Assembly (NCBI GenBank): GCA_017591395.1
Contig: WEDG01005299.1
Span: 62,001 to 126,000, forward strand
Length of the DNA: 64,000 bases
From: Schistocephalus solidus
Lineage: Eukaryota; Platyhelminthes; Cestoda; Diphyllobothriidea; Diphyllobothriidae
Direction: 5' to 3'
The notes under the pieces were generated by a model that was not told where the DNA came from, ran no database searches, and worked only from the letters and a program-made list of their open reading frames with translations. The translations under genes were made by a program, and so were the position numbers. Shown in pieces: positions 5,733 to 56,572 of this stretch. Position 1 is the stretch's first letter; each line of letters starts with the position of its first letter.

Positions 5733-6145
5733 TTAAATAAATAAATAAATAGGTTTATTGATTTGGCACTGCTTGGCGCCGTCAAATCCTTAGAACACAG
5801 GAAAAAACCTAAAACAAACTCCTCTTTTCATTAAACACTTAAGCTTTGGTTTGTTTGTTTGCTTAAATAGCAGTGTTGAAATGACGAGTTTGTTTTTAAG
5901 TAAAAAAACCTGTTTTCCAAGGTTTAGAAATAGCAAAAATGAAGTAAAAACAGCTATACAGAATGAAGATGAATGTATCAGGGAAATAATGTTTAGAGTC
6001 AAGACTAGTCTGTTATTGCCGTTCGAAGGTATTCATTTGACAGAGGTAGAAACGTCTGCGGTCGATTCGAAGGGCTAGGTACTTCCAATCAGATGCGAGC
6101 GCAGTCGATTCCGGTGTGAAGTCTGCCGAATAATTAGACTTAGTT
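5733..6145 (-). repeat. Dispersed repeat E, copy 1 (LINE-like 3' end) inserted in LINE-A A3
   Basis: About 410 bp, nearly identical to 34386-34815. On the minus strand it ends in AATAAACC followed by a TTTA-repeat tail, like the 3' end of a non-LTR element or SINE. It interrupts the LINE-A reverse transcriptase frame with loss of roughly nine target bases. No coding frame is evident. It carries a class II hairpin at 5797-5913. Confidence 0.8.
5797..5913 (-). ncRNA. Class II U-loop hairpin of repeat E, copy 1 (ENE-like)
   Basis: On the minus-strand RNA: outer helix ACAGG with CCUGU; opposed U tracts of 7 and 6 (complement of 5902-5908 and 5802-5807); then an inner helix of about 14 pairs between the complements of 5886-5900 and 5808-5821, with one bulged base. 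Copy E2 keeps the same fold, with one outer pair changed to G-U. This matches the geometry of class II hairpins in LINE-B and LINE-H although the sequence is different. Confidence 0.55.
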
Positions 6146-6644
6146 GAGCAAGTAGCTTCTTCTGGCGGCAGATCCGGATGGGTTTCCTAAGCGAAGTATC
6201 ATACACTGAGGGCCGTTGAACCGCAGAAGCCAATGTTTCGACCACTCCTCCAACCGAGTTAAGTTGATCTGTAGTTTATCTTTGTCAGCAGAGCCCTGGA
6301 TTGCATTCCAGATTTTCCTGTCGTTGGCAAAAATTTCTGCTTCACAGTCCAGATCCCTGACATAATCGTCCATGTAAACTAGGAATTATTGGCCCTAGTA
6401 CTGAACCCTGAAGAACCATACTTTCGACCGCACCCGAACTTGACTACTCTTGGCTGATGCACACAACGTAGTGCCGACCCACGAGGAAGTTTTCGATCCA
6501 TTTGCGGAGGTAACCTCTGATTCCAATTCTTTCTAGCTTGTACAACAATCTCTGGTGCGGCAAAGGGTTAAAGGCCTTTTGAAAATCAATGAAGGGGAGG
6601 TGAACGACGTCCCTTTAAGTCACTTTAAGTCACTTTATTGAGGG

Positions 6645-6675
6645 AAGTAGGCTTTCACCCTTGAGCTCCCTATTC
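6645..6675 (-). ncRNA. Class I 3'-terminal hairpin of LINE-D
   Basis: In RNA sense GAAUAGG at one end pairs, with one mismatch, with CCUACUU at the other. It is followed by CCCUCAAUAAA and the tandem tail. It aligns with the 3' ends of LINE-A, C and F. Confidence 0.55.
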
Positions 6676-7526
6676 ACATGCAAAAATGTCAATAGATCAA
6701 ACGTTGACAGTGATAAATCTGACAAATAAAAATGTAGGGTCATCGATATGTGTGGGCCAGGCGCAACCTGCCACTGTTTACACAATCTTCATTATATTGA
6801 CAAAAGTTTCTCAGAAAATGAGTATCTAGTTTAAATTTAAATGTGTCAACAGTTTCTGAAAGGTCCACCACGTCAGGGAGTCCGTTCCATGCTCCAACGA
6901 CCCTCTGCGAAAAGGCGTTCCGACGGACTTCCGTGTGGACAAACTTCCTCTGCAGTTTAAAGGATGACCCCGCAGATGTTCCGTCCCAGCCAATTCGAAG
7001 AAGTCAGCAAATTCTAGGGCACAATCGCGGCCTCTGACAATCAAGTAGGTTTGGATGAGGTCACCGCGTAGTTGCCTGTAATTTAGAGGAAACAAATCAA
7101 GTTCAACCAGTCTGGCTTCGTAAGGCAGATGACTTAGATTCTTGACCATCTTCGTAGCCCTCGCCTGCACTCGTCAGCTGTAGATAATCCTTCTTAAACC
7201 ACGGAAGCCAGGCCTGGATGGCATATTCCAAGTGAGATCGAACAAATACCCGAAGGTTTTCCGGAAGAGTTCCTTATCAATCTGCACAAATCCACGTCTG
7301 AGCGCAAATAAGACCTGTGTAGCGCGTTTAGCTGCCTTTAAACACTGTGAAGATGGTTTAAGTGAGGAGTTTATTAGAACACCGAGGTCCTTCTGTTCCT
7401 CAACAATTGAAAGAGCTGCCCATTGAGAATGTATTGGTAGGAATCATCCTCCTCACTGGTCCTTCTGGTACGCAGTCTTAGGACCTCACACTTCCCAACG
7501 TTAAAATTTAAGAGCCAACGAGCAGA

Positions 7527-8183
7527 TCAACTGCTTAGACGGTTGAGATCCTCTTGAAGTGCGTGCCTATCGAAATCAGTTCTGATGACCCTCCACAATT
7601 TAACATCATCTGCAAACATGATGGCGCTGCAATCCAGGTCGTCGACACAGTCGTTGATGTACACTAAGAAGAGTAACGGCCCTAATACCGAGCCTCGAGG
7701 GACACCACTTAGAACCGGAGTAGGTGTTGACTTCGAGGTATCGACGCACACAGTTTGCAATCTATCTGTAAGAAAGTCTGCGATCCATGTCAGCAGCATT
7801 CCTCTTATACCGATTTCAGATAATTTGTAGATGAGACGTTTGTGTGGGACACTGTCAAACGCCTTGAAATCAGTGTATATGACGTCAACCCTACCATTTT
7901 CATCCAGTGCACGAGTCCACTGCTCTGTGGAGAATAATAAACTAGAAAGACAGGAGCGATTCTGTCTGAAGCCATGCTGGAGATCTGAGAGTAATTGGTT
8001 TTCCTCAAGGAACTTCATGGTTGCCTTCTTGATTATTGATTCCATTATTTTAAAGCAAATGGAGGTTAGGCTGACAGGCCGATAATTGTTGACATTAGAT
8101 CGAGCACCACTCTTGTATATGGGGTATATATTTGCTGCCTTCCATTCGGATGGCAGTTTCCCTGATTCAAATGACGAATTCAA
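7527..8183 (-). pseudogene. LINE-D reverse transcriptase
   Basis: A 218-codon frame with KLPSEWKAANIYPIYKSGA, NNYRPVSLTSICFKIME, LQHGFRQNRSC, VIYTDFKAFDSVPHKRL (a Gln-Lys pair usual in this motif is reduced to one Lys), GVPRGSVLGPLLFL and MFADDVKLW. The catalytic Asp residues are present. Downstream, frame changes near 7527 and 7400 break the C-terminal domain, and the last piece is open at 7170-6826. It is distinct from LINE-F although of the same general lineage. Confidence 0.85.
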
Positions 8184-8482
8184 TATATGCGCTAGTGGTT
8201 TGGACAGTTCGCTGGCCAGTTATTTCAAGAACTTGGCCGGTATATCGTCCGGACCAGATGACTTCCCTTCTTTCAGATTTCGCAGTTCTAGTTCCACGAG
8301 AGGTTCCTGGAAGATTATATATTCAAGCACTGGACCGGCGTCTATAACAGCACTGTTGACGTGGTCAAGCTGATGTTCCGGTTCTCTAGTGAAAACCGAG
8401 GCAAAAAAAACAACCTAAGTACTCGGCTTTGTCGCAATTTTCAACGACTTCAACACCATTCCCATCCATGAGTACTGCTTGT

Positions 8483-8546
8483 TTTTTAGTCGGCTTGTTT
8501 TTTAGTCGGGTCCTTGTTTTTTAGTCCTTGTTTTTTAGTCGGCTAT
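8483..8546. repeat. Short tandem repeat at a LINE junction
   Basis: Four imperfect units of CTTGTTTTTTAGTC (with GG, GGGTC or nothing between) lie exactly between the 5' end of minus-strand LINE-D and the 5' end of plus-strand LINE-B. This looks like filler made by slippage when a truncated element was joined to the chromosome. Confidence 0.6.
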
Positions 8547-9650
8547 CGATATGAACGAATCTAGCTGTTCAAAAATTGAAAATGTCCATAGACAGTTCAC
8601 AAAAAACTCCTATATCCGACTCTTTTAACTACTTCCTACTCAACAAGATGCCAGCTAATGAAGCTAAAATTTCTTTGGGTCAGGAGACTTGAAGCAGGCT
8701 TTTGTCTACTTTTCCGACTAAATAATAGCTAAACTCTCCCCAAACTTCCTGTCATTACCCCCGTTGGTCTTCCTTACAACCTTAGAAATTCTACATTAAT
8801 TATACCTCCCTATGCACCCTCCACGTGTAAACGCTCTCTTTTCTTTGCTTCTAGGTATAGTTTTCTTTGGAATAACTTGCCAATTGAAATTAGGTCGTTA
8901 ACTAGTCTATCTGCATTCAAGCGAAGACTGCACATTTATCTTAAAACTGATTCTATTAAACTTTTATTTTCCTCATCTTTTCCTAGTAGCTTTCCCCATG
9001 AATCGGAGAAAGGACCATCGGGAATTGAAGTGACCCTCTTGAAACTATATTTTCATTACCTCGAGTCGCCCATGAACTATGATGTCACCTTATATCACCA
9101 GTCATTCAAACGATGACGTCATTCGGACGTTCACATTCGGTGGTCCACAGTCTAAAAATGCTACCGTTTCTTTTGGATACTAACCATCATCAGAATTCAA
9201 TTATGGATCCTAAGATGCTGAGGACTTAAGTTCATTGACGCATTTTTCGTGAGATTTTGTTTCATACGCCTAAGTGATCATGAACCAATCACCTCGACGT
9301 TTAAATATCTCATTATGAACTGCTACTTCAGTATTACCCTACCCTACTCTACCACCTGACCATTTTTTGCTAAGCAGTTTTTTTCTCCTACCTTCTATTT
9401 AAAAACATGAAGGCCTATTGAACTCTGCCTCCATTTTTATGGTAGGAGTTTTTTTCACTGCCTATTTATTTCTAGTTCACCACTAATTTTTAAACATTGC
9501 TAACTGTTGACATAACAGGACAAGTTATGTATTTGTACATTTTATCTGCACAAATTGTCATAACTTTATTTCGTTACTAATGTTTGCTTAGACAGTGCCT
9601 TCCGGTGCTTACCAAATATAAATTCTAAATTCTAAATTCCAACACCGATT
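8547..9650 (+). mobile_element. LINE-B copy B3, 5'-truncated 3' end
   Basis: Plus-strand copy of the last 1.1 kb of LINE-B as seen at 28100-29195: broken C-terminal domain of the reverse transcriptase (MNESS... to about 9115), 3' UTR with class II hairpin (9374-9461), and a tail of AAATTCT units at 9625-9650. It sits inside LINE-F copy F2, which resumes at 9651. Confidence 0.85.
9374..9461 (+). ncRNA. Class II U-loop hairpin, LINE-B copy B3 (ENE-like)
   Basis: GCAG (9374-9377), seven U, CUCCUACC (9385-9392), a 48-nt loop, GGUAGGAG (9441-9448), seven U, CACUGC (9456-9461). The eight-pair inner helix is perfect and the outer helix pairs GCAG with CUGC, so the U tracts face each other as a symmetric internal loop. 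Confidence 0.65.
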
Positions 9651-17475: not shown

Positions 17476-17830
17476 TGAAGTTATAATAATAATAATAGTT
17501 GTATTTAATACCGGTTTACAGGCATTGTCAGGTGAAATATTCAGTGGGTAGAGGCTGGCAGTGAAAAAACTCCTGAATATATATCATTATAAGTGTTTTT
17601 CCTATTTTCATGTTATTCAGGAGAAAAAACTGCCGCCTGTAAGGATGATAGCAATTCAGATCAGGGAAGGGCTAACACAATTGCAGTCTGTATGCAGTCT
17701 CTGTCTTTGCTAGGAACCGGGATTCTGCCTCAGGCAAGAAAGCATCCGTGTGCGGTCGCTCACTGTCTGCCGAAGAAGTCAACGGGTGCAGGCTGAGTCG
17801 TTCCTGCATATTTTGCATACCATTTACAGT
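17476..17830 (-). mobile_element. LINE-H-like 3' end fragment
   Basis: On the minus strand the end of a coding frame (to the stop at about 17672) runs SADSERPHTDAFLPEAESRF and ends QLC. This parallels the LINE-H C-terminus SADLNRLISQ...HQHLC. It is followed by a class II hairpin (17557-17634), a TGCCTGTAAACCGG motif also seen near 48790, and a TAA/TTA-repeat tail at 17481-17495. Confidence 0.7.
17557..17634 (-). ncRNA. Class II U-loop hairpin, H-like fragment (ENE-like)
   Basis: In RNA sense GGCAG, six U, CUCCUGAAUA, a 34-nt loop, UAUUCAGGAG, six U, CACUGCC. The inner helix is a perfect ten pairs and the outer GGCAG-CUGCC is five pairs. Compared with LINE-B, inner stem positions 6-8 are changed on both strands, so pairing is conserved and sequence is not. 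Confidence 0.65.
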
Positions 17831-19332: not shown

Positions 19333-20755
19333 TTGTCAGTGCTCTTTCAAAAGTCCTTTGACTCCGGAACACTTCCTTTCGATTGGAAGCTGGCACATAT
19401 AACTCCCTTGTACAAAAGCGGTAGCCGGGCGTCAGTGACAAACTACAGGCCCATAAGCTTTACATGCATCCTTGGCAAGATTATGGAAAGGATCATCAAG
19501 AGCGAATTGGTGAAATTCTTAGAGACTCATAATTTGTTATCAAGCTGTCAACACGGGGGTTCAGAAAAGGAAGATCATGCACAACGAATTTGCTGTATTC
19601 GATCCAGAGGTGGACCCAAGCACTTGAAGATAGACACGCGGTTCACATTGCCTTCATTGACTTTCATAAAAGGCCTTCGATACTGTGCCGCACGAGAGAC
19701 TGCTGTACAAGCTAGAAAGAATTGGAATCAGAGGTAACCTCCTCAAGTGGATCGAAAACTTCCTCGTGGGTCGGCGAAAGGTTGTGTGCATCGGCCAAGA
19801 GAGGTCAAGGTCTGCTGCGGTCGAGAGTGGGGGTTCCTCAGGGTTCAGTACTAGGGCCAATACTGTTTTTTTAATATACGTGAACGATTGTGTCAGGGAT
19901 CTCGACTGTGAAGCAGCAATGTTTGCCGACGACATTAAAATCTGGAATGTAATCCAGAGCCCTGCTGACGAAGATAAACTGCAGATCAACCTAACTCGGT
20001 TGGAGGAGTGGTCGAATCATTGGCTTTTGCGGTTCAACGTCAATAAGAGTACAATACTTCGCTTAGGCAACCCGTCTGGATCTGCCGAAAGTAGAAGTTA
20101 CTTTCTCAACGGTGAAGCCTTAAAAGACGTGGAAACCCAAAAGGACCTTGGTGTGCTGATGACCACCACCTTAAAACCATCGTCTCACTGCTCGAAAGGG
20201 GCGAAGAGGGCAATTTCGGTGTTGCATGCCATCAGACGAGCCTTTTTGGATTTCGATGAAGATCTTTTCGCTAAGACTTTTGGAACATTCATTAGGCCGC
20301 ATTTGAAATATGCTATGCACGCCTGGAAACCCTGGACAGTTCAAGATCAGAACTGCCTCGAAAGAGTCCAGAGGAAAGCCACCAAAATGGTTAGAAGTCA
20401 AAGCTCCTTGCCATATCCCACCCGCCTAATGAATCTTAATCTGTTCCCTTTGAGTTATAGGCAAATGCGTGGTGATCTCCTGCAGACATTCCGCATTGTG
20501 AAGGGATTGGATTGTTGCCTGGAATTCTCGGACTTCTTTGAATTTGCCGCCACGACCCATCTCCGAGGTCACCCATTGAAACTGCGTGTCCAGCAGGCGA
20601 GACTGGATGTGCGCAAGTTCTCCTTCTCTGTCAGAGTGGTTAAAACCATGGAATGCCCTCCCTGAAGACGTTGTGATGTCACCATCGCTGGAAAGCTTTA
20701 AAAGGAACCTTGACAGTTTTATGTTCCGCAACGAGCCTGAGCGATGAGGCATTTA
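19333..20755 (+). pseudogene. LINE-A reverse transcriptase (A8)
   Basis: Motifs in two frames: SVLFQKSFDSGTLPFDWK and NYRPISFT (to 19737, with a frame change inside the QHGF motif); then 19685-20665 with ESGGSSGF.TRANTVFLIYVND, where an extra G garbles the VPQGS motif, MFADDIKIW, LTRLEEWSNHWLLRFN, and the C-terminal domain from DVETQKDLGVL to LDVRKFSFSVRVV. A final indel near 20645 breaks the WNALPEDVV end. Three frameshifts but few stops suggest a fairly young copy. Confidence 0.85.
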
Positions 20756-20861
20756 TCTTAACCCTCGAGAGACGTGCACCACTTGTCAAATTTTATGACA
20801 GCCTTTTGTACCTTGGCAACCCACACGGTTTCTCTGTATACCGCACTTAATTTTACGTTAC

Positions 20862-20892
20862 AAATAGGGTACTCAAAGGCCCATGCCTATTT
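20862..20892 (+). ncRNA. Class I 3'-terminal hairpin of LINE-A (A8)
   Basis: AAAUAGG (20862-20868) pairs perfectly with CCUAUUU (20886-20892), and the loop can form GGC-GCC inside. CCCUCAAUAAA and the TTGAA-repeat tail follow. It is the presumptive recognition end for the reverse transcriptase. Confidence 0.6.
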
Positions 20893-21669
20893 CCCTCAAT
20901 AAATTGAATTGAATTGAATTGAATTTAGTTCGGGTAGCATCAGCACTAATCTGGCTTTACCGCCCATCGCTACCTCACTGGTAGACGTTGCACCAACATG
21001 CGATGTTGAAGAGGTTGGCGAATTTGTAAAGCCAAAGAAGAAAAGGTCTAAGAAGAACAAGTCGTGCAGAGACTTGGTTCCAGCCTGCCCAACATCCGGC
21101 TCATCTTGGCCTATCAGGCAAAGTGAGCTGGTTACCAATACTCACTCAGCTGAAAGATCTGAGTTACAAACGGGCCCTAGATTGAGTCGCAAACAGAATG
21201 TAGTCATTAAAGGTGTCCCGGAGTCAGCTTCAATTACTCCAAAGGAGCGAGTTAAACATGACTTGGAACTCCTTCAATTGTATGCAAAAACGCTGCTGAC
21301 GGACGGCGAGTCCATTCATATTCTCAAGGTATATAGAATAGGGAAGGCTCTGTCTACACCCGATTCAAATCCTCGACCAAGACCTCTTAAAATCATCTTG
21401 GAAAACGAAGCGCAGGCACAGCTCCTGCTACAGAGAAAATCAACCCTGCGGGGTCCGCATTCTGAAGTGTTTTTTCAACCGGAATATGGGTTGAAAGAGC
21501 GAATGAAAATGCGACAGCTAATAATAGAACTGAAAACACGAAAGACCAATGGCGAGGCAAATCTCAAAATAAGGGATGGACAGATAGTTCAAGTGAAAAG
21601 AGCATTTCTCTCGCCGAAGGCAGTCACCCTGACAGCCTAACTGTCCCGTTTCAGAAACCAAAAACGTGC

Positions 21670-22330: not shown

Positions 22331-22734
22331 TCCTGAAACGTTTTCCAAAAAATAAAGCTTTTTCCGTGATTTCAGATCAGCAAATATGAGGGAATTGATA
22401 ACACACCTAAATTCCCACGACTGGACTAACTTCTTTGTATGTTCTCGTTTTTTTCCCCGTAAGAAAATAATTAATGTCAAGGATGAATTCTACCTACCTT
22501 AATCATTCCGCCGTAGACTGCGTATACTCTACTATCGTTTTTATCTACAAAACGACACCTCCGTCCTGCCCTTGATCCAGAAAATGTTTGAAGAGGCTTA
22601 GAGGCTGTCTGACGAAAAACGACAAGCCGATGAGGTTAACTTTGCCAAAAACCTTTCGTTAAATGTTGCAAAGCTCTTTTCGCGCACAGTAAAAACGCAG
22701 AGAGGCCTTAGGAAACCCAATAGCTGACGCTAAG

Positions 22735-24550
22735 TTGACTGCTGATAGCTTCAATGTTTTCTTGTCTAGAACGTTTAGTGAACATACCGTCGCGCCCTTT
22801 CCTAACATCCGGGTTTGGACCGGTAACGTCCTCGAAACCAAAACTTTTACCCTCTGGGACGTGACCGTAGCCATTCGGCGTTTTCGTCAATCTTACAGTC
22901 CTAGACCAGATGGCGTCCCGGTCAGCGTTCTAAAGGCGGATGCAAACGATATTTTTCCGTCCCTTCTGTATAAGATATTTAATCTTGCTCTTGAAATTGA
23001 AACTTTCCCTATTTTATGGAAGGAATCGCACATACTGCCTTTTCCGAAACACGGCCGACCTACGTCATTTGACGACTTTAGACCAATAAATACACTACCA
23101 GCAGTCTCGAAGATCTTCGAGTCCTTGATCAAAGACAAGATGATGTGTCATCTAAGAGAAAATTACCAAGTTAATGCCGTTCAGCATGGTTTTCCCGCAA
23201 AAAGGTCTTGTGACACTTGCCAGCTCTCTTTCTTTGATCATGTGCTACAATCTAGAGACAGCGGTTTTGCAATTTACACCGTTAACTTCGATTTCACTAA
23301 GGCTTTTAATCGTGTTGACCATGATCTCCTTCTGCTGAAACTTACCTCCTTCGGCATAGGTAACAAGCTTCTGAACTTAATATTTTCCTATTTGAATGCT
23401 CGCGCACAACGGGTTAAAATTTCTGATGTTATCTCCAACCCCACGCATGTGAGGAGCGGAGTTATTCAGGGCAGCGTGCTCGGCCCGCTTCTATTTTGCC
23501 TCTTTGTCAACGATGTTCCTGATTGTTTTCAGTATGGTAGGCCCTTTCTGTACGCTGACGATTTTAAAGTTGCCTATCGATATAAACCGATTGATCGCAA
23601 CATCGTGCTTGAGCTCTTAAAAATGGATCTTCAGGCCTTCGCTCAGTGGTGTCGCACATGGCACCTCTCACTTTCTTGGCAAAGTGCTCCGTTATGGTTA
23701 TTGGCGACAACCATCAGCCCCACCTAAGCATAGATGGTCACGATCTTAACGTGCCCGGAGTTATAAAGGATCTGGGCGTATCATATTTGAGTAGTCTTAA
23801 TCTGTCAGAGCACTGCACCCTGATTGTCTCGAAAGCACGCCAAACTACTGGGTTTATTCTCAGAAATTTCAAAACCGTCAAAATTAGAATCAGCCTCTAT
23901 AAAATGTATGTCAGGCCTAGTCTGGAATACTGCTCATTCTATTTAGTCTTCTGCACGCTAGTGAACGAAAGAAGATAGAATCAGTCCAGCACTTCTTTAC
24001 AAAAAGTGTTTTCTATTCAGATTACCGAAACCTGTCCAATCACCAACGCTGTGAGCTTACAAGCCTTGACCCGCTGTGGCTTCGCAGATTACAGAAGGGA
24101 CTATTTTTACTGTTTAAACTACTAAACAGTTGTACATTTAACCCCCTTACATCTCTGAGGCACCTCCACCACTCTCGGCGCACCAGTCATCGAGATGTAT
24201 TTTTATTTCTTCCTTTGGCACGCACAGTTAGATACCGACAGTTTTTTTCGGTAAACGCTATAGCAATCTGGAATAAGCTACCTAGAAGTATCAAAATTCA
24301 GCAAAGCTATCCCTTGTTTATGCGAATTGTCACTAGTTTTCTACATTCAGGACACCTTCCAAAACTTTTGGGTGCTGACTCTGTTGAAGCTCTCTTCGGT
24401 TCTGCTGAGGGCAATATTACTGGCTCTGCAGACCTCAATCGGCTTATTTCTCAGTCGACAGCGGACAGACGCTCGCCGACATACCTGCTGGCGCAGAAAA
24501 CCGGATCCGTAACACTAAATGGAGAGGTTCTTCACCAGCACCTGTGTTAA
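22735..24550 (+). pseudogene. LINE-H reverse transcriptase and C-terminal domain
   Basis: The main frame 22735-23727 has WKESHILPFPKHGRP, DDFRPINTLPAVSKIFE, VQHGFPAKRSCDTCQ, VNFDFTKAFNRVDHDLL (first catalytic Asp), GVIQGSVLGPLLFCL and PFLYADDFKV (catalytic Asp pair). After a frameshift the thumb continues at 23646-23978, IKDLGVSYLSSLNL to YVRPSLEYC, and the C-terminus at 24215-24550 ends in LTGS/TLNGEVLHQHLC-type sequence. YADD with CDTC-type residues places it nearer LINE-B and LINE-G than LINE-A. Confidence 0.85.
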
Positions 24551-24585: not shown

Positions 24586-24644
24586 CTGCAGTTTTTTCTC
24601 CTGAAAACACCTGAAACATCAATCAGGAGTTTTTTCACTGTCAG
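24586..24644 (+). ncRNA. Class II U-loop hairpin, LINE-H (ENE-like)
   Basis: CUGCAG (24586-24591), six U, CUCCUGA (24598-24604), an 18-nt loop, UCAGGAG (24623-24629), six U, CACUGUCAG. The inner helix is seven perfect pairs. The outer helix is CAG-CUG, extendable to the flanking CUG...CAG with mismatch. It lies about 40 nt before the 3' end of the element. Confidence 0.65.
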
Positions 24645-24690
24645 CTTGACCCTCTACTGTATATATATATTTATTTTTCAAAAGCCGACG

Positions 24691-35316: not shown

Positions 35317-35320
35317 CTTA

Positions 35321-37170: not shown

Positions 37171-37392
37171 AAAGAGTTTGTCTTACACCGTGTGCAAGCA
37201 ACGCGTCTCATAGCTATGGCCTCTCAGTTCAACTGCACTAAGTGGTCGAGAACCACTTAACTTCCTATGATATATCGGGCCAATATAAGGATCTCCTTGC
37301 TGCGCTTGCACCCAAAGATGGCTTTGATCGTCTTGTAGTGACACGGCACTAATGTTAATGTCTGTACATGACGGACATTCGCCATGGGGACG

Positions 37393-37758
37393 TTAGGGCT
37401 TTCGAGAGAGAGCATCAGCATTATTGTGCTGACGTCCTGGACGGTATATGCATTCGAACTCATACCCGGCTAGTCTCTCTTGCCACCTAGCGACCTGTCC
37501 TTCAGCGTTCTTAAAGTTCTGCAACCAGGTCAGAGAGCTATGATCCGTACGCAGGATGAAAGGCCGGTATTGGATGTATGGCCGGCATTCCTCCACGAAG
37601 TGGGTGAGTGCGAGCATCTCCCTTCTGGTCACACAGTAACGGCGTTCTGCCTTTGTCAGGGATCGGCTTAGATACTGAATGACGCCCTCTGTACCATCTG
37701 GTTGTTGCTGGGAGAGGATGGTGCCTATGGCAGTGTCACTTGCATCGGTATCTAGCAT
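37393..37758 (-). pseudogene. pol: Gypsy RNase H domain, left unit
   Basis: Starts at LDTDASDTAIGTILSQ (first catalytic Asp) and contains REMLAL (Glu), LRTDHSSLTWL (Asp) and NADALSRKP (final Asp motif). The frame ends at TAA 37393-37395. Upstream, the left unit lacks two A near 37790 compared with the right unit, which shifts its frame between the reverse transcriptase and RNase H. Confidence 0.9.
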
Positions 37759-37945
37759 AAATTTCCTGGCGTCATTGCTTATGTCAGGAAACTAAAAAAG
37801 GAGTAGTGCACAACTTATCCTTCAACGTCTGGAAGCTACTAGTACAGCCAGCCGTCCACTTAAATTGTACTTCTTTCTGGGTCAGCTTGTGAAGCGGACC
37901 AGCTAGGTGAGCATAGTAATTAATAAATCTTCGATAGTAGGAAGC

Positions 37946-40165
37946 TTATCCTAGAAAACTGTGGACTTCAGTTACGTCCATAGGGGTGGGCCACTCACGG
38001 ATTTGCCTAACTTTATCTTCGTCCGTTTCGATGCCAGAGGCCGAGACTACATGCCCTAAAAACTTGACACGAGGTCTAATAAAAACACATTTACAGGGCT
38101 TAAGGGTGAGACCAGCCTGTCTGAGACTGGTAAACACGGCACGGACATTGCAAATATGACTATCAAAATCCTTACCAAGAACAATGATGTCATCCATATA
38201 AACTAGGCATGACTTGGGAATGAGTTGAGCCAGGACTTGATTCATTAGCCGTTGAAACGTACTGGGAGCATTAGCTAGGCCAAAAGGCATTGTCTCAAAC
38301 TCGTAAAGACCCGAGGGGACTGCGAAAGCAGTCTTCTCTCTGTCACTGCGTCGCACTTCTACTTGCCAGTAACCGGCTGCTAGATCTAAAGTAGATAATA
38401 CCTGATTACCCGAAAGGGCATCTAGGGTGGCATCAATCCTGGGCAGAGGGAAAGAATCCTTAGTTGTTACTGCATTTAATTTGCGATAGTCAACACATAA
38501 CCGCATAGTGCCATCCTTCTTCATAACTAACACGACCGGAGACGACCAAGGTGAATTGGACAGCCTGATAATTTTCCGGTCTAACACATAATCGATCATG
38601 GCTTTTAACTGTGTCTGGTAGAACACGGGTAATTGCCTAGGAGGAATCTTCGTGGGCCGAGTCACACCTGTATCAATCTCATGCTGGGCCACATTGGTAC
38701 GTCCGAGTGAACGGCCGTCCCAATCGAAGATATCTTTAAACTCCTCTATTAAACTACATAATTTAGACGAGCTATTCTTGTCAAGAGTAGGGGGCACTAA
38801 ATTATTGACATCTTCTAACTTGAATGCATTAATTACAGGTTGACTAACCGGTACCTCGGTCCTAAAAGGCACCTTAGTACCACCGACATGGAGAGTGTTA
38901 ACGTAAAAGTCTAAGGAAAATTTAAACGCATAAATAAAGTCGGCACCTACTATACAGTCCCAGGCAATGTCAGGACAGACAACAAACTTATGACTAAAAA
39001 TAAGGTCACTTATCTTCAAACTAAGCTCTATCATGCCTTTATGTCGCAATGTGGCTCCGTTTGCCGTCTTCAGGCTGACCTTAGGCTTTGTGCAATACTT
39101 CACTCTAGCCTGAAGTTGAATGAAAATATTCTGCCTAATGATGGAGCAGCCGGCTCCTGAATCAACTAAGCATGGCAACTTAGTATTTCCTATGGTTGCA
39201 TCTATAGCAGGGTAGTGTGGAATGTAACCTACGTTTGCAACAAGCATATCAGATATGAATATGCACTTACCAAGGGCTTCTTCCTCACCTGAGGTGATCA
39301 CATGAACACCTGGGGAAGGTGGAGGGCGGGTCTGATGACTACGTTGTTGCCTCCAGTTCCCGCGTCGAGGAGGCTGTGGAGAGCCTCGCCAAGGAGAGGT
39401 CGGCTGTGGAGGGCCGCGCCACGGAGTTTGGGGTTGTGGAGAGCTACGCCAAGGAGTGGGCTGAGGAGGGCCCCACTGCCATTGGGCCGTTTGCGTGCCG
39501 ACGTCGCGGCTCTGTCGCTGTCCCATGGCGAAGACATCGACTGGAGCGTCCTGTATGGTGGCAGGAGCTTGATGAAATCCATAGGCTGATGGGGAGACTT
39601 GGACCAAGGGACAGGCCGTATAAATGGCCTCCTCTCGCCGAGCAATATCGAGGGCAACCTTGATGCTGCTGGGGGGGTCGCAGAGGAATCGGTGCCTGAT
39701 CTCAGGGAGAGAGATCCCGTCGACAAAGTTCTCCAGAATTCTGGCCTCGAGCTCAGTGAAGGACTCGGTAGGGTAGGCTTGACGGGCCAGGACGCGAAGA
39801 TGTCGTTTGAAATCCACGACAGACTCGCCCGCGTGTTGTCGGCGGCTTTTGAGGGCGGCGCGGGCAACCCAGGGCATCGACGACCGTCCGAATTCGCGCC
39901 GCAGACGCTCAAAGATGGTCGCGGAGGTGAGCGACGCTGTCAGGTTGGCAGCCCTGGCCACCGTGTTCACCTCGTTTTCTAGCCGTCCCAGGATGGCAGC
40001 TGGTCGGGCACCTTCGTCTACGGCCTCCAGGTAGACTTTCATACGGTCCTCCCATAAGTCATAATCGTCATAAACCGTGAGCTTATCCGGCTTAGGTTGA
40101 CGGCCTCCAGAGCTTGAGACCCGCTCCATCGCCTGAACTAGTCTAGTTATCAAGTCTTCGGACAT
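37946..40165 (-). CDS. gag-pol: Gypsy gag-protease-reverse transcriptase polyprotein, left unit (ends at a premature stop)
   Basis: 739 codons. Gag is about residues 1-230: a capsid-like helical region (WEDRMKVYLEA, FERLRREFGR, VVDFKRHLRVLARQAYP). Residues 231-280 are rich in Pro, Trp and Arg with repeats of the type PWR..PQP and RRGN; no CCHC zinc knuckle is visible. Protease has DSGAG at 335-339 and IVGADF at 405-410. Reverse transcriptase runs from about 510, with LDLAAGY at 593-599, MPFGLANAPSTFQ and YMDD at 656-659. The frame ends at TAA (37946-37948) after VHSFLG, where the family continues into the connection domain and RNase H. The start ATG lies only five bases downstream of the primer-binding site. 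Gag and pol share one frame without a shift. Confidence 0.93.
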   Translation of the reverse strand: MSEDLITRLVQAMERVSSSGGRQPKPDKLTVYDDYDLWEDRMKVYLEAVDEGARPAAILGRLENEVNTVARAANLTASLTSATIFERLRREFGRSSMPWVARAALKSRRQHAGESVVDFKRHLRVLARQAYPTESFTELEARILENFVDGISLPEIRHRFLCDPPSSIKVALDIARREEAIYTACPLVQVSPSAYGFHQAPATIQDAPVDVFAMGQRQSRDVGTQTAQWQWGPPQPTPWRSSPQPQTPWRGPPQPTSPWRGSPQPPRRGNWRQQRSHQTRPPPSPGVHVITSGEEEALGKCIFISDMLVANVGYIPHYPAIDATIGNTKLPCLVDSGAGCSIIRQNIFIQLQARVKYCTKPKVSLKTANGATLRHKGMIELSLKISDLIFSHKFVVCPDIAWDCIVGADFIYAFKFSLDFYVNTLHVGGTKVPFRTEVPVSQPVINAFKLEDVNNLVPPTLDKNSSSKLCSLIEEFKDIFDWDGRSLGRTNVAQHEIDTGVTRPTKIPPRQLPVFYQTQLKAMIDYVLDRKIIRLSNSPWSSPVVLVMKKDGTMRLCVDYRKLNAVTTKDSFPLPRIDATLDALSGNQVLSTLDLAAGYWQVEVRRSDREKTAFAVPSGLYEFETMPFGLANAPSTFQRLMNQVLAQLIPKSCLVYMDDIIVLGKDFDSHICNVRAVFTSLRQAGLTLKPCKCVFIRPRVKFLGHVVSASGIETDEDKVRQIREWPTPMDVTEVHSFLG

Positions 40166-40170
40166 TGATT

Positions 40171-40188
40171 ATCCCACCGCTGCCACCA
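40171..40188 (-). promoter_or_regulatory. Primer-binding site, tRNA-Leu, left unit
   Basis: The plus strand reads ATCCCACCGCTGCCACCA, exactly the 3' end with CCA that I recall for animal tRNA-Leu (AAG type). The minus-strand RNA is therefore fully complementary over 18 nt. Three A (40189-40191) separate it from the LTR, as in other gypsy elements. Confidence 0.85.
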
Positions 40189-40191
40189 AAA

Positions 40192-40708
40192 TGTAACGGG
40201 CCCGTTTTAGATGCGCAACTAATCCAAATGAACGACGCCCAAGAGAGAACAAGACAGTAGGCAAGGGGAAGAGTTTAGGGATTAGTTGAAGCTAGAAATT
40301 GGAACTCTATTTGGGGCTTGGTCCTGGGAGGATCCTTTGGTGGGGATTGGCTGTCCTGGGAGAATCCTTTGGTAGGGATTGGCTGTCCTGGGGAGATCTT
40401 CGGGAGGTCAGTGGAGAAGGAGAGGAGATGGCTGGAGAAGCGTCAGAGAGCGGTCTCCGGTCCAAAGTGATGAGCCTCAATTCTCCTTGGTATTTATGTC
40501 ATGTTCTCCAGACGATTAGATAGGTTTACATAGAATAGACCAATGGGTAGGCGTAAATCATACGTTGTAGATCGAAAACAACCAATAGGGTTAAGAATTA
40601 AGATTTTATAGACTTCCGGGCTGGTGCTAGTAATCTGGGCTACTGGAGTAATCTGCTAGTAATTTGGGCTATTAGAGAAAATCGAAAAACTTTGATTCCA
40701 TCTTTACA
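40192..40708 (-). repeat. Gypsy LTR 2 (shared middle LTR), 517 bp
   Basis: It serves as 5' LTR of the left unit and 3' LTR of the right unit. Its left part carries the LTR3 alleles at all six sites where LTR1 differs, while its right part is full length like LTR1 and lacks the LTR3 deletion. Confidence 0.95.
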
Positions 40709-41048
40709 TTGCCCCCTCCTGCGTTAAGTTTTCACTGTCCTCAGCGAGCTCAATGTCATTTCGAAAACGCACGGAGTCCCTTGAATTTTGAATGTTATAA
40801 GGCATTACGGTTTCTTCTCCACATTCGGTTGGGATTTCAACCCACCTCTCGACCCCCTCGTGATCTACGTAACGCACTGCATCGCCTGGGCATTCTGCTC
40901 TGCGGTTATCTTCCATTGGCCTCTCCCCCAGTTTAAGTCTATTAAAGTGAACCGTGAATTCAGAGGTGAAAGGTCGATTTCGACCTTGAATGACGCAGGT
41001 CGTATCAGAGAGCATTCTGGTGACGGTATATGGCCCTGACCAGTCCAT
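40704..41048 (-). CDS. pol: Gypsy integrase C-terminal module, right unit
   Basis: Identical 114-codon GPY/F-like module, ending at TAA in LTR2. The TAG before the apparent start is shared. Confidence 0.85.
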   Translation of the reverse strand: MDWSGPYTVTRMLSDTTCVIQGRNRPFTSEFTVHFNRLKLGERPMEDNRRAECPGDAVRYVDHEGVERWVEIPTECGEETVMPYNIQNSRDSVRFRNDIELAEDSENLTQEGAM

Positions 41049-41150
41049 TACTAACTAACTCGGTAATCCCTGGGGAGTCGCATGTTCCCTGAGCCAAACC
41101 ACATCACCGATATCATATGGACACCCATGTGCCAGCCTGTCATAGTGTTC

Positions 41151-42041
41151 CTAATGGTGCCTCTGGGCTCCTTGTAAGTGTATCCGTGCTTCCTCCGTGG
41201 CTATATGCATTTTGTTGTGCAGTGAAGCGACGTAAGAACCAAGCGTTATTTGATTATTCTCAAGAGGTACTCGTAGATCCTCTGGTATTCGCATTTCACG
41301 GCCACAGGTGAGTGCGAAAGGCGTCTGTTGTGTCGAAGAGTGAACCGTGGACCGGTATGCAAGCATGCACGCTGGCAACGCATCATCCCACGTGAAGGGA
41401 ACCTGACGATCTACAAAAGCCTTTACTAAACCAACTAGCGTCCTATTCGTCCGCTCCACTTGACCGTTTCCTTGCGGGTGGTAAGCCGTGGTGCGCGTCT
41501 TATTGACCTTTAAGTATTTGCACAGACTGTGAAGGACCGCGTTTTCAAACGAGGACCCTCGATCCGAATGGATCTGTTCCGGTGTGCCCCATCTACATAC
41601 CCAATTGTTAAAGATGGCCTGGGCAACAGTGTCAGCCGACATGTTGGGAAGGGGTTCCGCTTCAGCCATTTTGGTAAAGAAATCAACCATCACTAGAATA
41701 TATCGGTTGCCCCGAACTGATGGTGGTAGTGGTCCCACTAAGTCAACGCCTACATGTTCGTTGGGGTATCCCGTCAGAATAGGCTGAAGAGCAGCCCTAT
41801 TCAGCTGTCGTGGCGGTTTGATCTGATTACACAAGGTGCAATACCGAATAAAGTTCCACACTGACCGCTTCAAGTTAGGCCAGTAGTATCGGCGCCTAAG
41901 GGCCCACTCGGTCTTATGGATGCCCACGTGCCCCAACTGTGTGTGGATTCTATTAAGAACCTCGTCTACCATGGATAAGGGTATAAGAATACGTCGCGGG
42001 TATTGTTCGCCATCCCGATAGAACAAAACGTCATTATCCAT
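41151..42041 (-). CDS. pol: Gypsy integrase, right unit
   Basis: The 296 codons are identical in sequence to the left unit, with the HHCC module and DDE core intact. The same TAA upstream (near 42054) and TAG downstream (41151-41153) are present. Confidence 0.92.
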   Translation of the reverse strand: MDNDVLFYRDGEQYPRRILIPLSMVDEVLNRIHTQLGHVGIHKTEWALRRRYYWPNLKRSVWNFIRYCTLCNQIKPPRQLNRAALQPILTGYPNEHVGVDLVGPLPPSVRGNRYILVMVDFFTKMAEAEPLPNMSADTVAQAIFNNWVCRWGTPEQIHSDRGSSFENAVLHSLCKYLKVNKTRTTAYHPQGNGQVERTNRTLVGLVKAFVDRQVPFTWDDALPACMLAYRSTVHSSTQQTPFALTCGREMRIPEDLRVPLENNQITLGSYVASLHNKMHIATEEARIHLQGAQRHH

Positions 42042-42263
42042 AAAGAGTTTGTCTTACACCGTGTGCAAGCAACGCGTCTCATAGCTATGGCCTCTCAGTT
42101 CAACTGCACTAAGTGGTCGAGAACCACTTAACTTCCTATGATATATCGGGCCAATATAAGGATCTCCTTGCTGCGCTTGCACCCAAAGATGGCTTTGATC
42201 GTCTTGTAGTGACACGGCACTAATGTTAATGTCTGTACATGACGGACATTCGCCATGGGGACG

Positions 42264-42698
42264 TTAGGGCTTTCGAGAGAGAGCATCAGCATTATTGTGC
42301 TGACGTCCTGGACGGTATATGCATTCGAACTCATACCCGGCTAGTCTCTCTTGCCACCTAGCGACCTGTCCTTCAGCGTTCTTAAAGTTCTGCAACCAGG
42401 TCAGAGAGCTATGATCCGTACGCAGGATGAAAGGCCGGTATTGGATGTATGGCCGGCATTCCTCCACGAAGTGGGTGAGTGCGAGCATCTCCCTTCTGGT
42501 CACACAGTAACGGCGTTCTGCCTTTGTCAGGGATCGGCTTAGATACTGAATGACGCCCTCTGTACCATCTGGTTGTTGCTGGGAGAGGATGGTGCCTATG
42601 GCAGTGTCACTTGCATCGGTATCTAGCATAAATTTCCTGGCGTCATTGCTTATGTCAGGAAAAACTAAAAAAGGAGTAGTGCACAACTTATCCTTCAA
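42264..42698 (-). pseudogene. pol: Gypsy connection end and RNase H, right unit
   Basis: 144 codons. Unlike the left unit, the frame here is continuous from the shared TAA after FLG into RNase H (LDTDASD, TDHSSL, NADALS), because two A are retained at about 42660. It ends at the shared TAA before RPHGEC. Confidence 0.9.
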
Positions 42699-42885
42699 CG
42701 TCTGGAAGCTACTAGTACAGCCAGCCGTCCACTTAAATTGTACTTCTTTCTGGGTCAGCTTGTGAAGCGGACCAGCTAGGTGAGCATAGTAATTAATAAA
42801 TCTTCGATAGTAGGAAGCTTATCCTAGAAAACTGTGGACTTCAGTTACGTCCATAGGGGTGGGCCACTCACGGATTTGCCTAACT

Positions 42886-43746
42886 TTATCTTCGTCCGTT
42901 TTCGATGCCAGAGGCCGAGACTACATGCCCTAAAAACTTGACACGAGGTCTAATAAAAACACATTTACAGGGCTTAAGGGTGAGACCAGCCTGTCTGAGA
43001 CTGGTAAACACGGCACGGACATTGCAAATATGACTATCAAAATCCTTACCAAGAACAATGATGTCATCCATATAAACTAGGCATGACTTGGGAATGAGTT
43101 GAGCCAGGACTTGATTCATTAGCCGTTGAAACGTACTGGGAGCATTAGCTAGGCCAAAAGGCATTGTCTCAAACTCGTAAAGACCCGAGGGGACTGCGAA
43201 AGCAGTCTTCTCTCTGTCACTGCGTCGCACTTCTACTTGCCAGTAACCGGCTGCTAGATCTAAAGTAGATAATACCTGATTACCCGAAAGGGCATCTAGG
43301 GTGGCATCAATCCTGGGCAGAGGGAAAGAATCCTTAGTTGTTACTGCATTTAATTTGCGATAGTCAACACATAACCGCATAGTGCCATCCTTCTTCATAA
43401 CTAACACGACCGGAGACGACCAAGGTGAATTGGACGGCCTGATAATTTTCCGGTCTAACATATCATCGATCATGGCTTTTAACTGTGTCTGGTAGAACAC
43501 GGGTAATTGCCTAGGAGGAATCTTCGTGGGCCGAGTCACACCTGTATCAATCTCATGCTGGGCCACATTGGTACGTCCGAGTGAACGGCCGTCCCAATCG
43601 AAGATATCTTTAAACTCCTCTATTAAACTACATAATTTAGACGAGCTATTCTTGTCAAGAGTAGGGGGCACTAAATTATTGACATCTTCTAACTTGAATG
43701 CATTAATTACAGGTTGACTAACCGGTACCTCGGTCCTAAAAGGCAC
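42886..43746 (-). pseudogene. pol: Gypsy reverse transcriptase, right unit
   Basis: 286 codons with CVDYRKLN, LDLAAGY, MPFGLANAPSTFQ and YMDD as in the left unit. It has two coding differences (YVLDR to DMLDR, RLSNS to RPSNS). An extra T near 42900 ends the frame after SASGIE. Confidence 0.92.
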
Positions 43747-43784
43747 CTTAGTACCACCGACATGGAGAGTGTTAACGTAAAAGT

Positions 43785-45038
43785 CTAAGGAAAATTTAAC
43801 GCATAAATAAAGTCGGCACCTACTATACAGTCCCAGGCAATGTCAGGACAGACAACAAACTTATGACTAAAAATAAGGTCACTTATCTTCAAACTAAGCT
43901 CTATCATGCCTTTATGTCGCAATGTGGCTCCGTTTGCCGTCTTCAGGCTGACCTTAGGCTTTGTGCAATACTTCACTCTAGCCTGAAGTTGAATGAAAAT
44001 ATTCTGCCTAATGATGGAGCAGCCGGCTCCTGAATCAACTAAGCATGGCAACTTAGTATTTCCTATGGTTGCATCTATAGCAGGGTAGTGTGGAATGTAA
44101 CCTACGTTTGCAACAAGCATATCAGATATGAATATGCACTTACCAAGGGCTTCTTCCTCACCTGAGGTGATCACATGAACACCTGGGGAAGGTGGAGGGC
44201 GGGTCTGATGACTACGTTGTTGCCTCCAGTTCCCGCGTCGAGGAGGCTGTGGAGAGCCTCGCCAAGGAGAGGTCGGCTGTGGAGGGCCGCGCCACGGAGT
44301 TTGGGGTTGTGGAGAGCTACGCCAAGGAGTGGGCTGAGGAGGGCCCCACTGCCATTGGGCCGTTTGCGTGCCGACGTCGCGGCTCTGTCGCTGTCCCATG
44401 GCGAAGACATCGACTGGAGCGTCCTGTATGGTGGCAGGAGCTTGATGAAATCCATAGGCTGATGGGGAGACTTGGACCAAGGGACAGGCCGTATAAATGG
44501 CCTCCTCTCGCCGAGCAATATCGAGGGCAACCTTGATGCTGCTGGGGGGGTCGCAGAGGAATCGGTGCCTGATCTCAGGGAGAGAGATCCCGTCGACAAA
44601 GTTCTCCAGAATTCTGGCCTCGAGCTCAGTGAAGGACTCGGTAGGGTAGGCTTGACGGGCCAGGACGCGAAGATGTCGTTTGAAATCCACGACAGACTCG
44701 CCCGCGTGTTGTCGGCGGCTTTTGAGGGCGGCGCGGGCAACCCAGGGCATCGACGACCGTCCGAATTCGCGCCGCAGACGCTCAAAGATGGTCGCGGAGG
44801 TGAGCGACGCTGTCAGGTTGGCAGCCCTGGCCACCGTGTTCACCTCGTTTTCTAGCCGTCCCAGGATGGCAGCTGGTCGGGCACCTTCGTCTACGGCCTC
44901 CAGGTAGACTTTCATACGGTCCTCCCATAAGTCATAATCGTCATAAACCGTGAGCTTATCCGGCTTAGGTTGACGGCCTCCAGAGCTTGAGACCCGCTCC
45001 ATCGCCTGAACTAGTCTAGTTATCAAGTCTTCGGACAT
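43785..45038 (-). pseudogene. gag-pol: Gypsy gag-protease, right unit
   Basis: 417 codons, identical to the left unit through protease (DSGAG, IVGADF). Loss of one A in a run near 43798 then shifts the frame and ends it. The same five-base distance from primer-binding site to ATG applies. Confidence 0.92.
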
Positions 45039-45043
45039 TGATT

Positions 45044-45061
45044 ATCCCACCGCTGCCACCA
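45044..45061 (-). promoter_or_regulatory. Primer-binding site, tRNA-Leu, right unit
   Basis: Identical 18-nt complement of the tRNA-Leu 3' end, again three bases inside the LTR. Confidence 0.85.
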
Positions 45062-45064
45062 AAA

Positions 45065-45552
45065 TGTAACGGGCCCGTTTTAGATGCGCAACTAATCCAA
45101 ATGAACGACGCCCAAGAGAGAACAAGACAGTAGGCAAGGGGAAGAGTTTAGGGATTAGTTGAAGCTAGAAATTGGAACTCTATTTGGGGCTTGGTCCTGG
45201 GAGGATCCTTTGGTGGGGATTGGCTGTCCTGGGAGAATCCTTTGGTAGGGATTGGCTGTCCTGGGGAGATCTTCGGGAGGTCAGTGGAGAAGGAGAGGAG
45301 ATGGCTGGAGAAGCGTCAGAGAGCGGTCTCCGGTCCAAAGTGATGAGCCTCAATTCTCCTTGGTATTTATGTCATGTTCTCCAGACGATTAGATAGGTTT
45401 ACATAGAATAGACCAATGGGTAGGCGTAAATCATACGTTGTAGATCGAAAACAACCAATAGGGTTAAGAATTAAGATTTTATAGACTTCCGGGCTGGTGC
45501 TAGTAATTTGGGCTATTAGAGAAAATCGAAAAACTTTGATTCCATCTTTACA
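45065..45552 (-). repeat. Gypsy LTR 3 (5' LTR of the right unit), 488 bp
   Basis: Identical to LTR2 as far as I can see, except for a 29-bp deletion between two copies of GCTAGTAAT (corresponding to 40626-40634 and 40655-40663 in LTR2), typical of slippage between direct repeats. Confidence 0.95.
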
Positions 45553-48770: not shown

Positions 48771-49100
48771 TTTTATTTATTTATTGCCAGTTTACAGGCA
48801 AGGTCAAAAATATATATAGTAGAGGGTCAAGCTGACAGTGAAAAAAACTCCTGATCGTTGTTTCAGGTGTTTTCAGGAAAAAAAACTGCAGCTTATTGAT
48901 TAATTAAAGTTCTGGACAGGGACGCGTTAACACAGGTACCCAGTGAAGAACCTCTCCATTTAGTGTTACGGATCCGGTATGCTGCACCAGCAGGTATGTC
49001 GGCGAGCGGCTGTTCGCTGTCGACTGAGAAATAAGCCGATTGAGGTCTGCAGAGCCAGAAATATTGCCCTTAGCATGAAGACCGGCACAGAATTTGCTTG
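48766..49100 (-). mobile_element. LINE-H 3' end fragment inserted in LINE-C
   Basis: Reverse complement of 24400-24680: the end of the LINE-H frame (AKGNISGSADLNRLISQS, then TGSVTLNGEVLHW), the 3' UTR, a class II hairpin (48833-48891), and a longer 3' end than the copy at 24690, with TTGACCTTGCCTGTAAACTG and a TTTTA/AATAAATA tail at 48766-48785. A short ACAT duplication may flank it. Confidence 0.82.
48833..48891 (-). ncRNA. Class II U-loop hairpin, LINE-H fragment (ENE-like)
   Basis: In RNA sense CUGCAG, seven U, UCCUGA, loop, UCAGGAG, seven U, CACUGUCAG. Loop sequence and U-tract lengths differ from 24586-24644 while both helices are kept. Confidence 0.62.
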
Positions 49101-54772: not shown

Positions 54773-54800
54773 TCAGCAAGATCTATACGAGGATGCATTA

Positions 54801-55118
54801 AGTTTTTAACGAGCAGCTTAAATTATCAAGCGAATAGTTTACTGAGCACAAAAGAAGTGCTTTTTCCGAACCGAATTCACTATCGAATGTTACTACGAAG
54901 CAAAGAATGATGCAACCCTCGAAGTGATCCAATGACAACTTATTTCGTTTAGTCCTGACTTTTGGGAACAGATTATTGGCCAAAAAGTCAAAAGCTTGGA
55001 GACGAGCGAATTTCAAACGGAGGTCCAACGACGCCGCAATAGAAACAATATGAGCAATAAATGCGCTCTATTCGTTCAAAAAACCACTTTTAAAAACAAT
55101 AAATGATAGGAAGAATAT
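54801..55118. other. Unassigned stretch between LINE-F and the DNA transposon relic
   Basis: A minus-strand 76-codon frame (55028-54798) has no family I can name. It might be downstream sequence of the transposon relic T1. Confidence 0.3.
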
Positions 55119-55990
55119 TCAGGAACGACTCAGCCGTTTGTAGAGGTCAAAGGTCCTGGATAACTTCAGATCTTCAAGGGGGTTTTGCACTTTTGGTCCA
55201 CTGAGCAGTTGACAGTATTTATTGGTGAAGAGGCTGTTTTTATCAAGTCGACGAAGGTGATAAACAAATTCCAATTTGATGTCGTTTTGTGAGGTAATTC
55301 GGCACAAGAAAAAATTTCCAGAAAATTCCAAAGAGCAATTACGTTCGTGCAGTGGCAGTTTTAATGTCAGAATCCGAACAAGCGAAGTGTTAACGATTTT
55401 CAAACTTTCCAAGTCGGAGAACAAAAAGATACGTGGTGGAGAAAACCTCTTCACACACAATCTAAGTAACTTCTGCATTACACCCAAGAACACAAAGTGC
55501 ATGTAGTCCATTGGGAAGCTACTAACCATGTCGAAAGGTAACTTCTCGAAGGGCGATATGCCGCTGTGGTGGAGTCCCTCCTTTCGTGATTGAAACGAAC
55601 GGTCATCGCGAAGACGCCCGCTATACACAGGAAACGTCATGTGGTTAGCAATGGAAATTCCAACATCACACCACCTAGAGTGTTTTCCATTTCCTTCACC
55701 AAATGACGTACTTGTCACATCCATCTGCTTTGTAATTCGCTTGGTTATTCCATGACCCTATTGATTCTGCATTCCAACTCAAAATAATATTGCCTGAAAA
55801 CTTACCATTTGAAACCTCGGGAAAGATTTCAGGCATTTGAGGCTCCAGTGAGGGGTATAACGCCGACGACGAAGATGACGAAGGACCATCTGCTACTTCG
55901 GTTGCAGCATAATACGCCTGCATTGCACGGAATACCCGCTTATACACGGTGCTTCTCTTGATTCTGTAATATTTTCGCTTCATGGCTACT
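55119..55990 (-). pseudogene. CACTA/TNP2-like transposase relic T1
   Basis: Minus strand. An N-terminal piece (55983-55696) starts MKRKYYRIKRSTVYKRVF. After a frame change, 55724-55119 has ISIANHMTFPVY, HHSGISPFEKLPFDMV and FPMDYMHFVFLGVMQKLL. The D-x-M-H-x-V-x-L-G-V motif is typical of a large animal transposase family that I place, tentatively, with CACTA/EnSpm (Transposase_21). The piece between the two frames (substrate-domain region) is mostly lost and the C-terminal third is missing. Terminal inverted repeats were not found. Confidence 0.6.
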
Positions 55991-56290
55991 TTTCACGGAC
56001 AACAAAACACAATATATAAATGATATGAGGGCATATTTAACATTCAGTGAGCAACAAAAATTACCGTTAATATTTCGCATTTAACTCGAGCATACGTAAA
56101 TTAACATGAAATTTAAAAGCAAAAGTTAGCAAATTGTATTATAAAACATCTCCAGCCCTCTGGCCTACCTACCTGAGTATCAGCAGCTTTGAGAACAATA
56201 ATTCAGTCTTACAAGGCACACAGCAGGCTGGCACACGCTTAGTAGACAAATGGCGTCTTAATGTCTGACTTAGACAAAGCATCACAAATC
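55991..56290. other. Unassigned stretch
   Basis: AT-rich, probably 5' non-coding sequence of T1 or plain intergenic DNA. Nothing recognised. Confidence 0.35.
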
Positions 56291-56485
56291 AGTTTTATTT
56301 ATTTATTTAGAATTTATATTTTGTAAGCAGTGGCAAGGCACTGTCTAAGCAAACATTAGTAACGAAATAAAGTTATGACAATATGTGCAGATAAATTTCA
56401 AATACTTAATAATGTAGACATAACTTGTCCTGCTATGTCAACAGTTAACGATGTTTTGAAATTAATGGTGAACTAGAAAAAATAG

Positions 56486-56572
56486 GCAGTGAAAAAAAAC
56501 TCCTACCTTAAAAATGGAGGCAAATTTCAATAGGCCTTCATTTTTGAATAGAAGGTAGGAGAAAAAAACTGC
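56486..56572 (-). ncRNA. Class II U-loop hairpin, LINE-B copy B4 (ENE-like)
   Basis: In RNA sense GCAG, seven U, CUCCUACC, loop, GGUAGGAG, eight U, CACUGC. The helices are the same as in B1 and B3. Confidence 0.65.

Follow-up and report, generated by a model that had tools for sequence, protein, structure and literature searches.

A candidate poly(A)-clamping RNA fold with opposed U tracts in the 3' untranslated regions of one LINE clade of the tapeworm Schistocephalus solidus

Why should several families of long interspersed nuclear elements (LINEs) in the tapeworm Schistocephalus solidus share an RNA fold with two opposed U tracts shortly before their 3' ends? The question is raised by a stretch of 64,000 nucleotides (nt) of assembly GCA_017591395.1 (contig WEDG01005299.1, positions 62,001 to 126,000; "the window" hereafter means this whole stretch), in which a preliminary description had listed nine sites with a common plan of helix, U tract, inner helix and loop. 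The plan is present at all nine, each reading helix, U6-8, inner helix, loop, inner helix, U6-8 and helix, and on balance we lean towards interpreting it as a 3' untranslated region (UTR) element of one LINE clade that resembles the elements for nuclear expression (ENEs) and would serve as a poly(A) clamp. What was computed directly here is the fold with its position and its spread over the families, together with the tails, the predicted hairpins and the hexamers. The nine sites in the window are as follows (U tracts given as 5'/3'; the descriptor and z-scores are explained further down):

9374 to 9461, plus strand: B1 fold, U7/U7 (layout read, strict descriptor match, energy z-score)
28936 to 29021, plus strand: B2 fold, U7/U6 (layout read, strict descriptor match)
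29518 to 29602, minus strand: B3 fold, U6/U7, outer helix with one G-U pair (layout read)
56486 to 56572, minus strand: B4 fold, U7/U8 (layout read, strict descriptor match)
24586 to 24644, plus strand: H1 fold, U6/U6 (layout read, energy z-score)
48833 to 48891, minus strand: H2 fold, U8/U7, predicted minimum-energy fold differs (layout read)
17557 to 17634, minus strand: Hl fold, U6/U6 (layout, strict descriptor, genome search, energy z-score)
5797 to 5913, minus strand: E1 fold, U7/U6, long inner stem (layout, strict descriptor, energy z-score)
34461 to 34577, minus strand: E2 fold, U6/U7, long inner stem (layout, strict descriptor)

The fold is carried by five LINE families, B, Bx, H, Hl and E, of which Bx is missing from the nine sites and surfaced through a looser structural descriptor. 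We searched the genome (604 Mb, 8019 contigs) and scored the best 40 matches per family out of 1827 first-look candidates for B, 3427 for H, 2114 for E, 2118 for Hl and 2466 for Bx. Leaving the query aside, the remaining 39 of these best 40 were 96-98% identical to it for B, 95-97% for Bx, 98-100% for E and 99-100% for Hl, and those of H were 93-95% identical across about two-thirds of the query. Hl, which had been labelled an H-like fragment, is instead an abundant family of its own (at least 40 matches at 99-100% identity), with reverse transcriptase (RT) sequence upstream of its matches on contigs C7210, C4636 and C1154, as is the case for Bx on C84 and C3986. Likewise, E had been described as a mere repeat and turns out to be the 3' end of a LINE in the same RT clade: its copies hold LINE sequence, and at loci L114 and L117 an E-type RT is followed by the 3' region of E, although the sequence analysed there stops, or departs from E, before it reaches the fold. 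We also considered E as a short element with a fixed start, which was rejected since other copies continue upstream into LINE sequence. At three loci (L071, L073 and L117), the E-type 3' UTR changes to other sequence after TTCGGCAGACC, a switch that points to a variant of this UTR. On contig C6481 (G000), H-type 3' ends lie at 4993, 7253, 9500 and 11750 (L031, L032, L045 and L055) on one strand with a spacing of ca. 2.25 kb, so that these H copies resemble a tandem array.

Although the RTs of B and H share only 34% identity over 319 residues, the fold itself has changed little among B, Bx, H and Hl. Its arms agree fully between H and Hl (35 of 35 aligned letters) and at all but one letter between B and Bx (35 of 36). 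The respective counts are 90 of 125 letters over 170 columns and 202 of 264 over 432 columns in the upstream flanks, and 53 of 81 over 93 and 108 of 143 over 230 downstream. In the six pairings of these four families, exact matches reach at most 11-18 nt in either half of the fold and 6-9 nt in the flanks; judged by these alignments, the fold of the four families is conserved far beyond its surroundings. Family E shares the plan and not the letters with the others: its longest exact matches to them inside the fold (7-8 nt) are no better than those in the flanks (4-9 nt).

The pairs of the stems were tabulated from one copy of each of the five families with hand-aligned arms and no shuffle control; this alignment was used since MAFFT, run with and without E, shifted the arms by one or more columns. 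The outer CAG/CUG helix and inner pairs 1 to 5 are invariant among B, Bx, H and Hl, as are the letters U6-8-CUCCU. Beyond them, inner pair 6 is A-U in B and Bx and G-C in H and Hl, pair 7 is C-G in B, A-U in H and Hl and unpaired in Bx, and pair 8 is C-G in B and A-U in Hl, whereas Bx and H do not form it. Family E builds each of the first eight inner pairs next to the same U loop (pair 3 as U-G), mostly from different letters. The inner pair next to the loop is C-G in all families except E, and the outer pair next to it is G-C in all five, preceded on the 3' strand by a CA or A spacer except in E. Covariation had been proposed as a check. Inner pairs 6 to 8 carry changes in both partners when B, H and Hl are compared, though five families are too few for a test of significance.

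The distribution of the fold follows the RT. In the window, the U tracts of B1 to B4 and H1 lie on the strand of the upstream RT-coding sequence, and other copies place those of H, Hl and E on the RT-coding strand as well. Two of the frames concerned are:

26857 to 28458, plus strand: RT frame (Pfam RVT_1) of the LINE-B copy that carries B2
22693 to 23727, plus strand: RT frame (Pfam RVT_1) of the LINE-H copy that carries H1

The best named relative of the LINE-B RT is found in Sparganum proliferum (57-64% identity over 44-59% of the query), followed by Schistosoma, Dicrocoelium and Trichobilharzia, while two metagenomic proteins outscore all named ones. Using the C-terminal parts of P0017 and P0002, both metagenomic relatives of this RT, we searched the genome for 150 matches each and took eight per list, chosen for varied alignment range and identity for P0017 and at about even steps of rank for P0002 (10, 30, 50, 70, 91, 110, 129 and 141; rank 90 was skipped as a known B copy). 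The fold lies downstream of 15 of these 16 RT matches, i.e., all eight of the P0017 list (five H-type, three Hl-type) and seven of the P0002 list (four B, three Bx), and at L106, L110 and L116 it is kept with point changes in one stem. At L114, the sole miss and counted as such, an E-type LINE copy occupies the expected position of the fold. Because all samples belong to known families, this result tests presence within one RT clade and not new families; as far as sampled, the fold marks one LINE RT clade. LINE family A has no such fold in either of its two complete 3' UTRs in the window (20665-20925 and 56653-56831), which end in CAATAAA and an (ATTGA)n tail. At 26685-31856, the window also holds two B elements tail to tail in opposite orientation, with ca. 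0.5 kb between B2 and B3.

Chance accounts poorly for this arrangement. A strict descriptor (at least five T on both sides, an inner helix of at least six and an outer helix of at least four pairs, G-U pairs excluded) has six matches in the window, all among the nine sites, versus a mean of 0.05 in dinucleotide-shuffled windows (two in total, n = 40, 500-nt blocks); B3, H1 and H2 escape it owing to G-U or mismatched stem pairs. The looser descriptor was run over 327,570 bases comprising the window and 88 loci, some overlapping and most chosen for a B, H or E copy, and 82 of its 87 matches there are B, H, Hl or E. The other five are three H variants, the new family Bx (L083:857-950) and a weak match in RT-coding sequence. 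On the sense strand, folding energies lie below those of shuffled sequence in all families (z-scores of -3.7 for B1, -4.4 for Bx, -2.5 for H1, -4.7 for Hl and -5.8 for E1).

Free replacement of the U tracts by other bases in further copies had been named beforehand as an observation that would speak against a clamp, and what we find is retention: unbroken runs of five or more U persist in both tracts in 29 of 30 copies of B, 30 of 33 of H, 11 of 11 of Hl, 29 of 30 of E and 4 of 4 of Bx. This retention is weak evidence of selection because the copies are near-identical. Substitutions affect 11 of 1333 tract letters as compared to 117 of 6132 flanking T (Fisher p 0.005), a difference that stems from B and H (6 of 835 versus 92 of 3738, p 0.0008) and is no more than suggestive, because the copies are related and homopolymers align loosely.

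The position of the tracts near the presumed 3' end of the sense strand was likewise borne out: in all five families, the terminal repeats begin 47-204 nt after the fold. In B copies the tail is (TTCTAAA)n. Most H copies close with A-rich AATAAA-type repeats, some breaking off in TA repeats; E copies have TTA or TTTA repeats or end directly, and the tails are TTA repeats in Hl and ATTT repeats in Bx. Distances, A-runs, hairpins and hexamers were taken from one copy per family. From fold to tail we count 47 nt in E, 50 in H, 59 in Hl, 159 in B and 204 in Bx, and the longest A-run in between is 3 in E, H and Hl, 4 in B and 5 in Bx. Just before the tail, a short hairpin is predicted in all five families, and at most 12 nt from the start of the tail stands one of twelve poly(A)-signal hexamers looked for: AATAAA in H, E and family A, ATTAAA in Hl, and AATATA or TATAAA in B and Bx. 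For B1, the corresponding features are:

9604 to 9613, plus strand: letters GGTGCTTACC of the terminal hairpin, a B-type hairpin that is predicted in another copy
9620 to 9639, plus strand: terminal repeat tail (TTCTAAA)n, not poly(A)

The H1 copy, in contrast to other H copies, has no terminal hairpin and A-rich tail and ends after a TA repeat (window 24645-24760). The terminal hairpins of H (TTGCC..GGCAA; L104 and L105) and Hl (ATGCC..GGTAT; L107) have a similar loop and different stem letters, and this predicted structure is a second candidate RNA element, probably a handle for the RT. The layout of a stringent-type 3' signal, a stem-loop with short tandem repeats, is seen in the separate predicted terminal hairpin and tail (one copy per family) and not in the fold.

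How could such a fold serve a LINE? We propose that the LINE RNA would be cleaved and polyadenylated near the AAUAAA-type hexamer at the terminal repeats, and that the opposed U6-8 tracts, held between the CAG/CUG outer helix and the inner helix, would take up this post-transcriptional poly(A) as a U.A-U triple helix. The triple helix would slow deadenylation so that the LINE RNA survives for translation and copying, and copying would start from the terminal hairpin, a separate structure, and the short tandem repeats, keeping poly(A) out of new genomic copies. Polyadenylation, triple helix, protection and the start of copying are the steps that we infer. We thus favour a division of labour in which hairpin and repeats would act in copying and the fold would act, via poly(A), on the life of the RNA. 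The separate predicted hairpin between fold and tail suggests a role of the fold in RNA stability and not in RT recognition, and it weakens the earlier idea that the fold presents the 3' end to the RT. That the clamp might also hide poly(A) from the RT, besides protecting the RNA, and thereby force copying to start at the hairpin and repeats upstream seems improbable to us; if such masking by an RNA triplex were true, it would be one reason why the genomic copies of these LINEs lack poly(A).

The proposed likeness to ENEs holds for the plan, which is common to five families and strongly conserved in four of them. No A tract is encoded as a partner, and the tails are short tandem repeats. Several observations weigh against a poly(A) clamp. 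Genomic copies have no poly(A) ends, and in the copy analysed per family no encoded A-tract longer than 5 follows the fold. The hexamers of B and Bx are weak variants of the signal, and words of this kind arise by chance in A+T-rich sequence. Folding energy does not single out a strand because the antisense strand folds about as well in the three cases tested (z-scores of -5.2 for B1, -4.0 for Hl and -3.6 for E1), and the minimum-energy prediction for H2 is another fold. In family E, the inner pair next to the loop is A-U and the tracts are not depleted of substitutions (5 of 359 versus 22 of 1842 at flanking T). The window has no Rfam match at gathering score, and in permissive Rfam scans the matches of B1 (E 0.8 to 2.3) and those of three loci all stayed below the family cut-offs. 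Beside E copies, sub-cut-off matches to mir-9 (34 bits versus 58.6) were noted at L083:1997-2074 and L072:1131-1208.

Among known systems, the MALAT1-type 3' triple helix joins two U-rich strands, as present here, with an A-rich tract encoded in the genome, for which our LINEs have no counterpart. A 2016 study by Tycowski and colleagues reportedly found ENEs in non-metazoan species, one fish and dicistroviruses, and this earlier set is said to have been predicted to form at most five stacked triples. In known ENEs, two U strands clamp poly(A), and deadenylation is blocked (PMC12501189, PMC4246217, PMC12846552). The ENE of the Arabidopsis retrotransposon Copia93/Evade has U-rich internal loops between helices in a 3' UTR as well; its U loops and the adjacent G-C pairs are required for the complex in vitro, and its deletion reduces RNA stability and mobility (PMC12501189). 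Unlike our LINEs, whose two tracts form a candidate clamp and whose genomic copies carry no poly(A), Evade is a plant long terminal repeat (LTR) element with four U tracts and demonstrated poly(A) binding. ENEs of plant and fungal transposons, including the rice hAT element, follow the same plan of helix, U tract, helix and U tract near the 3' end (PMC12846552, PMC10078130), though the rice hAT structure is a double ENE and ours a single fold with U6-8 per side. The PAN RNA of Kaposi's sarcoma-associated herpesvirus similarly has a U-rich loop near its 3' end, but it is a viral noncoding RNA whose poly(A) triple helix has been solved by crystallography (PMC4246217). The stringent-type tails of the LINEs ZfL2 and UnaL2 share the 3' hairpin and short repeats with our families, which add a second element with a U-U internal loop upstream of that hairpin (PMC4176376).

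This last comparison bears on an alternative that we regard as unlikely while taking it seriously, namely that the LINE's own protein uses the fold as part of an RNA signal for choosing its template in target-primed reverse transcription, with the U-U loop bound by protein. Stringent-type LINEs require a 3' stem-loop bound by their own protein (PMC4176376), and a fold confined, as sampled, to one RT clade and absent from both complete 3' UTRs of family A would suit such a partnership. Yet the known signal lies where all five families have a separate predicted hairpin, directly before the repeats, with the fold 47-204 nt upstream, and H and Hl retain similar terminal hairpins besides the fold; the force of this argument is limited by the possibility of larger recognition signals.

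Rather improbable is that the U tracts and CUCCU form a single-stranded landing site for a host protein that binds U or pyrimidines, with the helices only displaying them. It would explain why the U6-8-CUCCU letters, and not just the pairing, are kept in B, Bx, H and Hl, but the complementary stem strand is conserved too and E has opposed U tracts in a helix without CUCCU. Finally, a functionless foldback inherited through the shared 3' UTR ancestry of related LINEs is very improbable even though the families are of common ancestry, their copies young and near-identical and the antisense strand folds too, considering that shuffled windows give just 0.05 descriptor matches each, that a plain inverted repeat would set A and not T opposite a T run, and that the arms are conserved where the flanks are not.

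Elsewhere in the window (35320-45363), three 300-nt repeats of 98% identity are spaced by 4.87 kb around two near-identical Gypsy-like frame sets, as if tandem LTR elements shared an LTR or the assembly contained an artefact.

Among the titles and abstract openings listed by literature searches, with most subscription papers outside their coverage, none reports an ENE in a LINE or a flatworm, and the transposon ENEs in the literature examined, as far as its accessible parts go, are those of LTR and DNA elements of plants and fungi. A conserved candidate in abundant flatworm LINEs would add animal non-LTR retrotransposons to the elements with poly(A) clamping. It also opens to testing how LINE RNAs whose copying does not start from poly(A) handle the tail that their transcripts probably carry.

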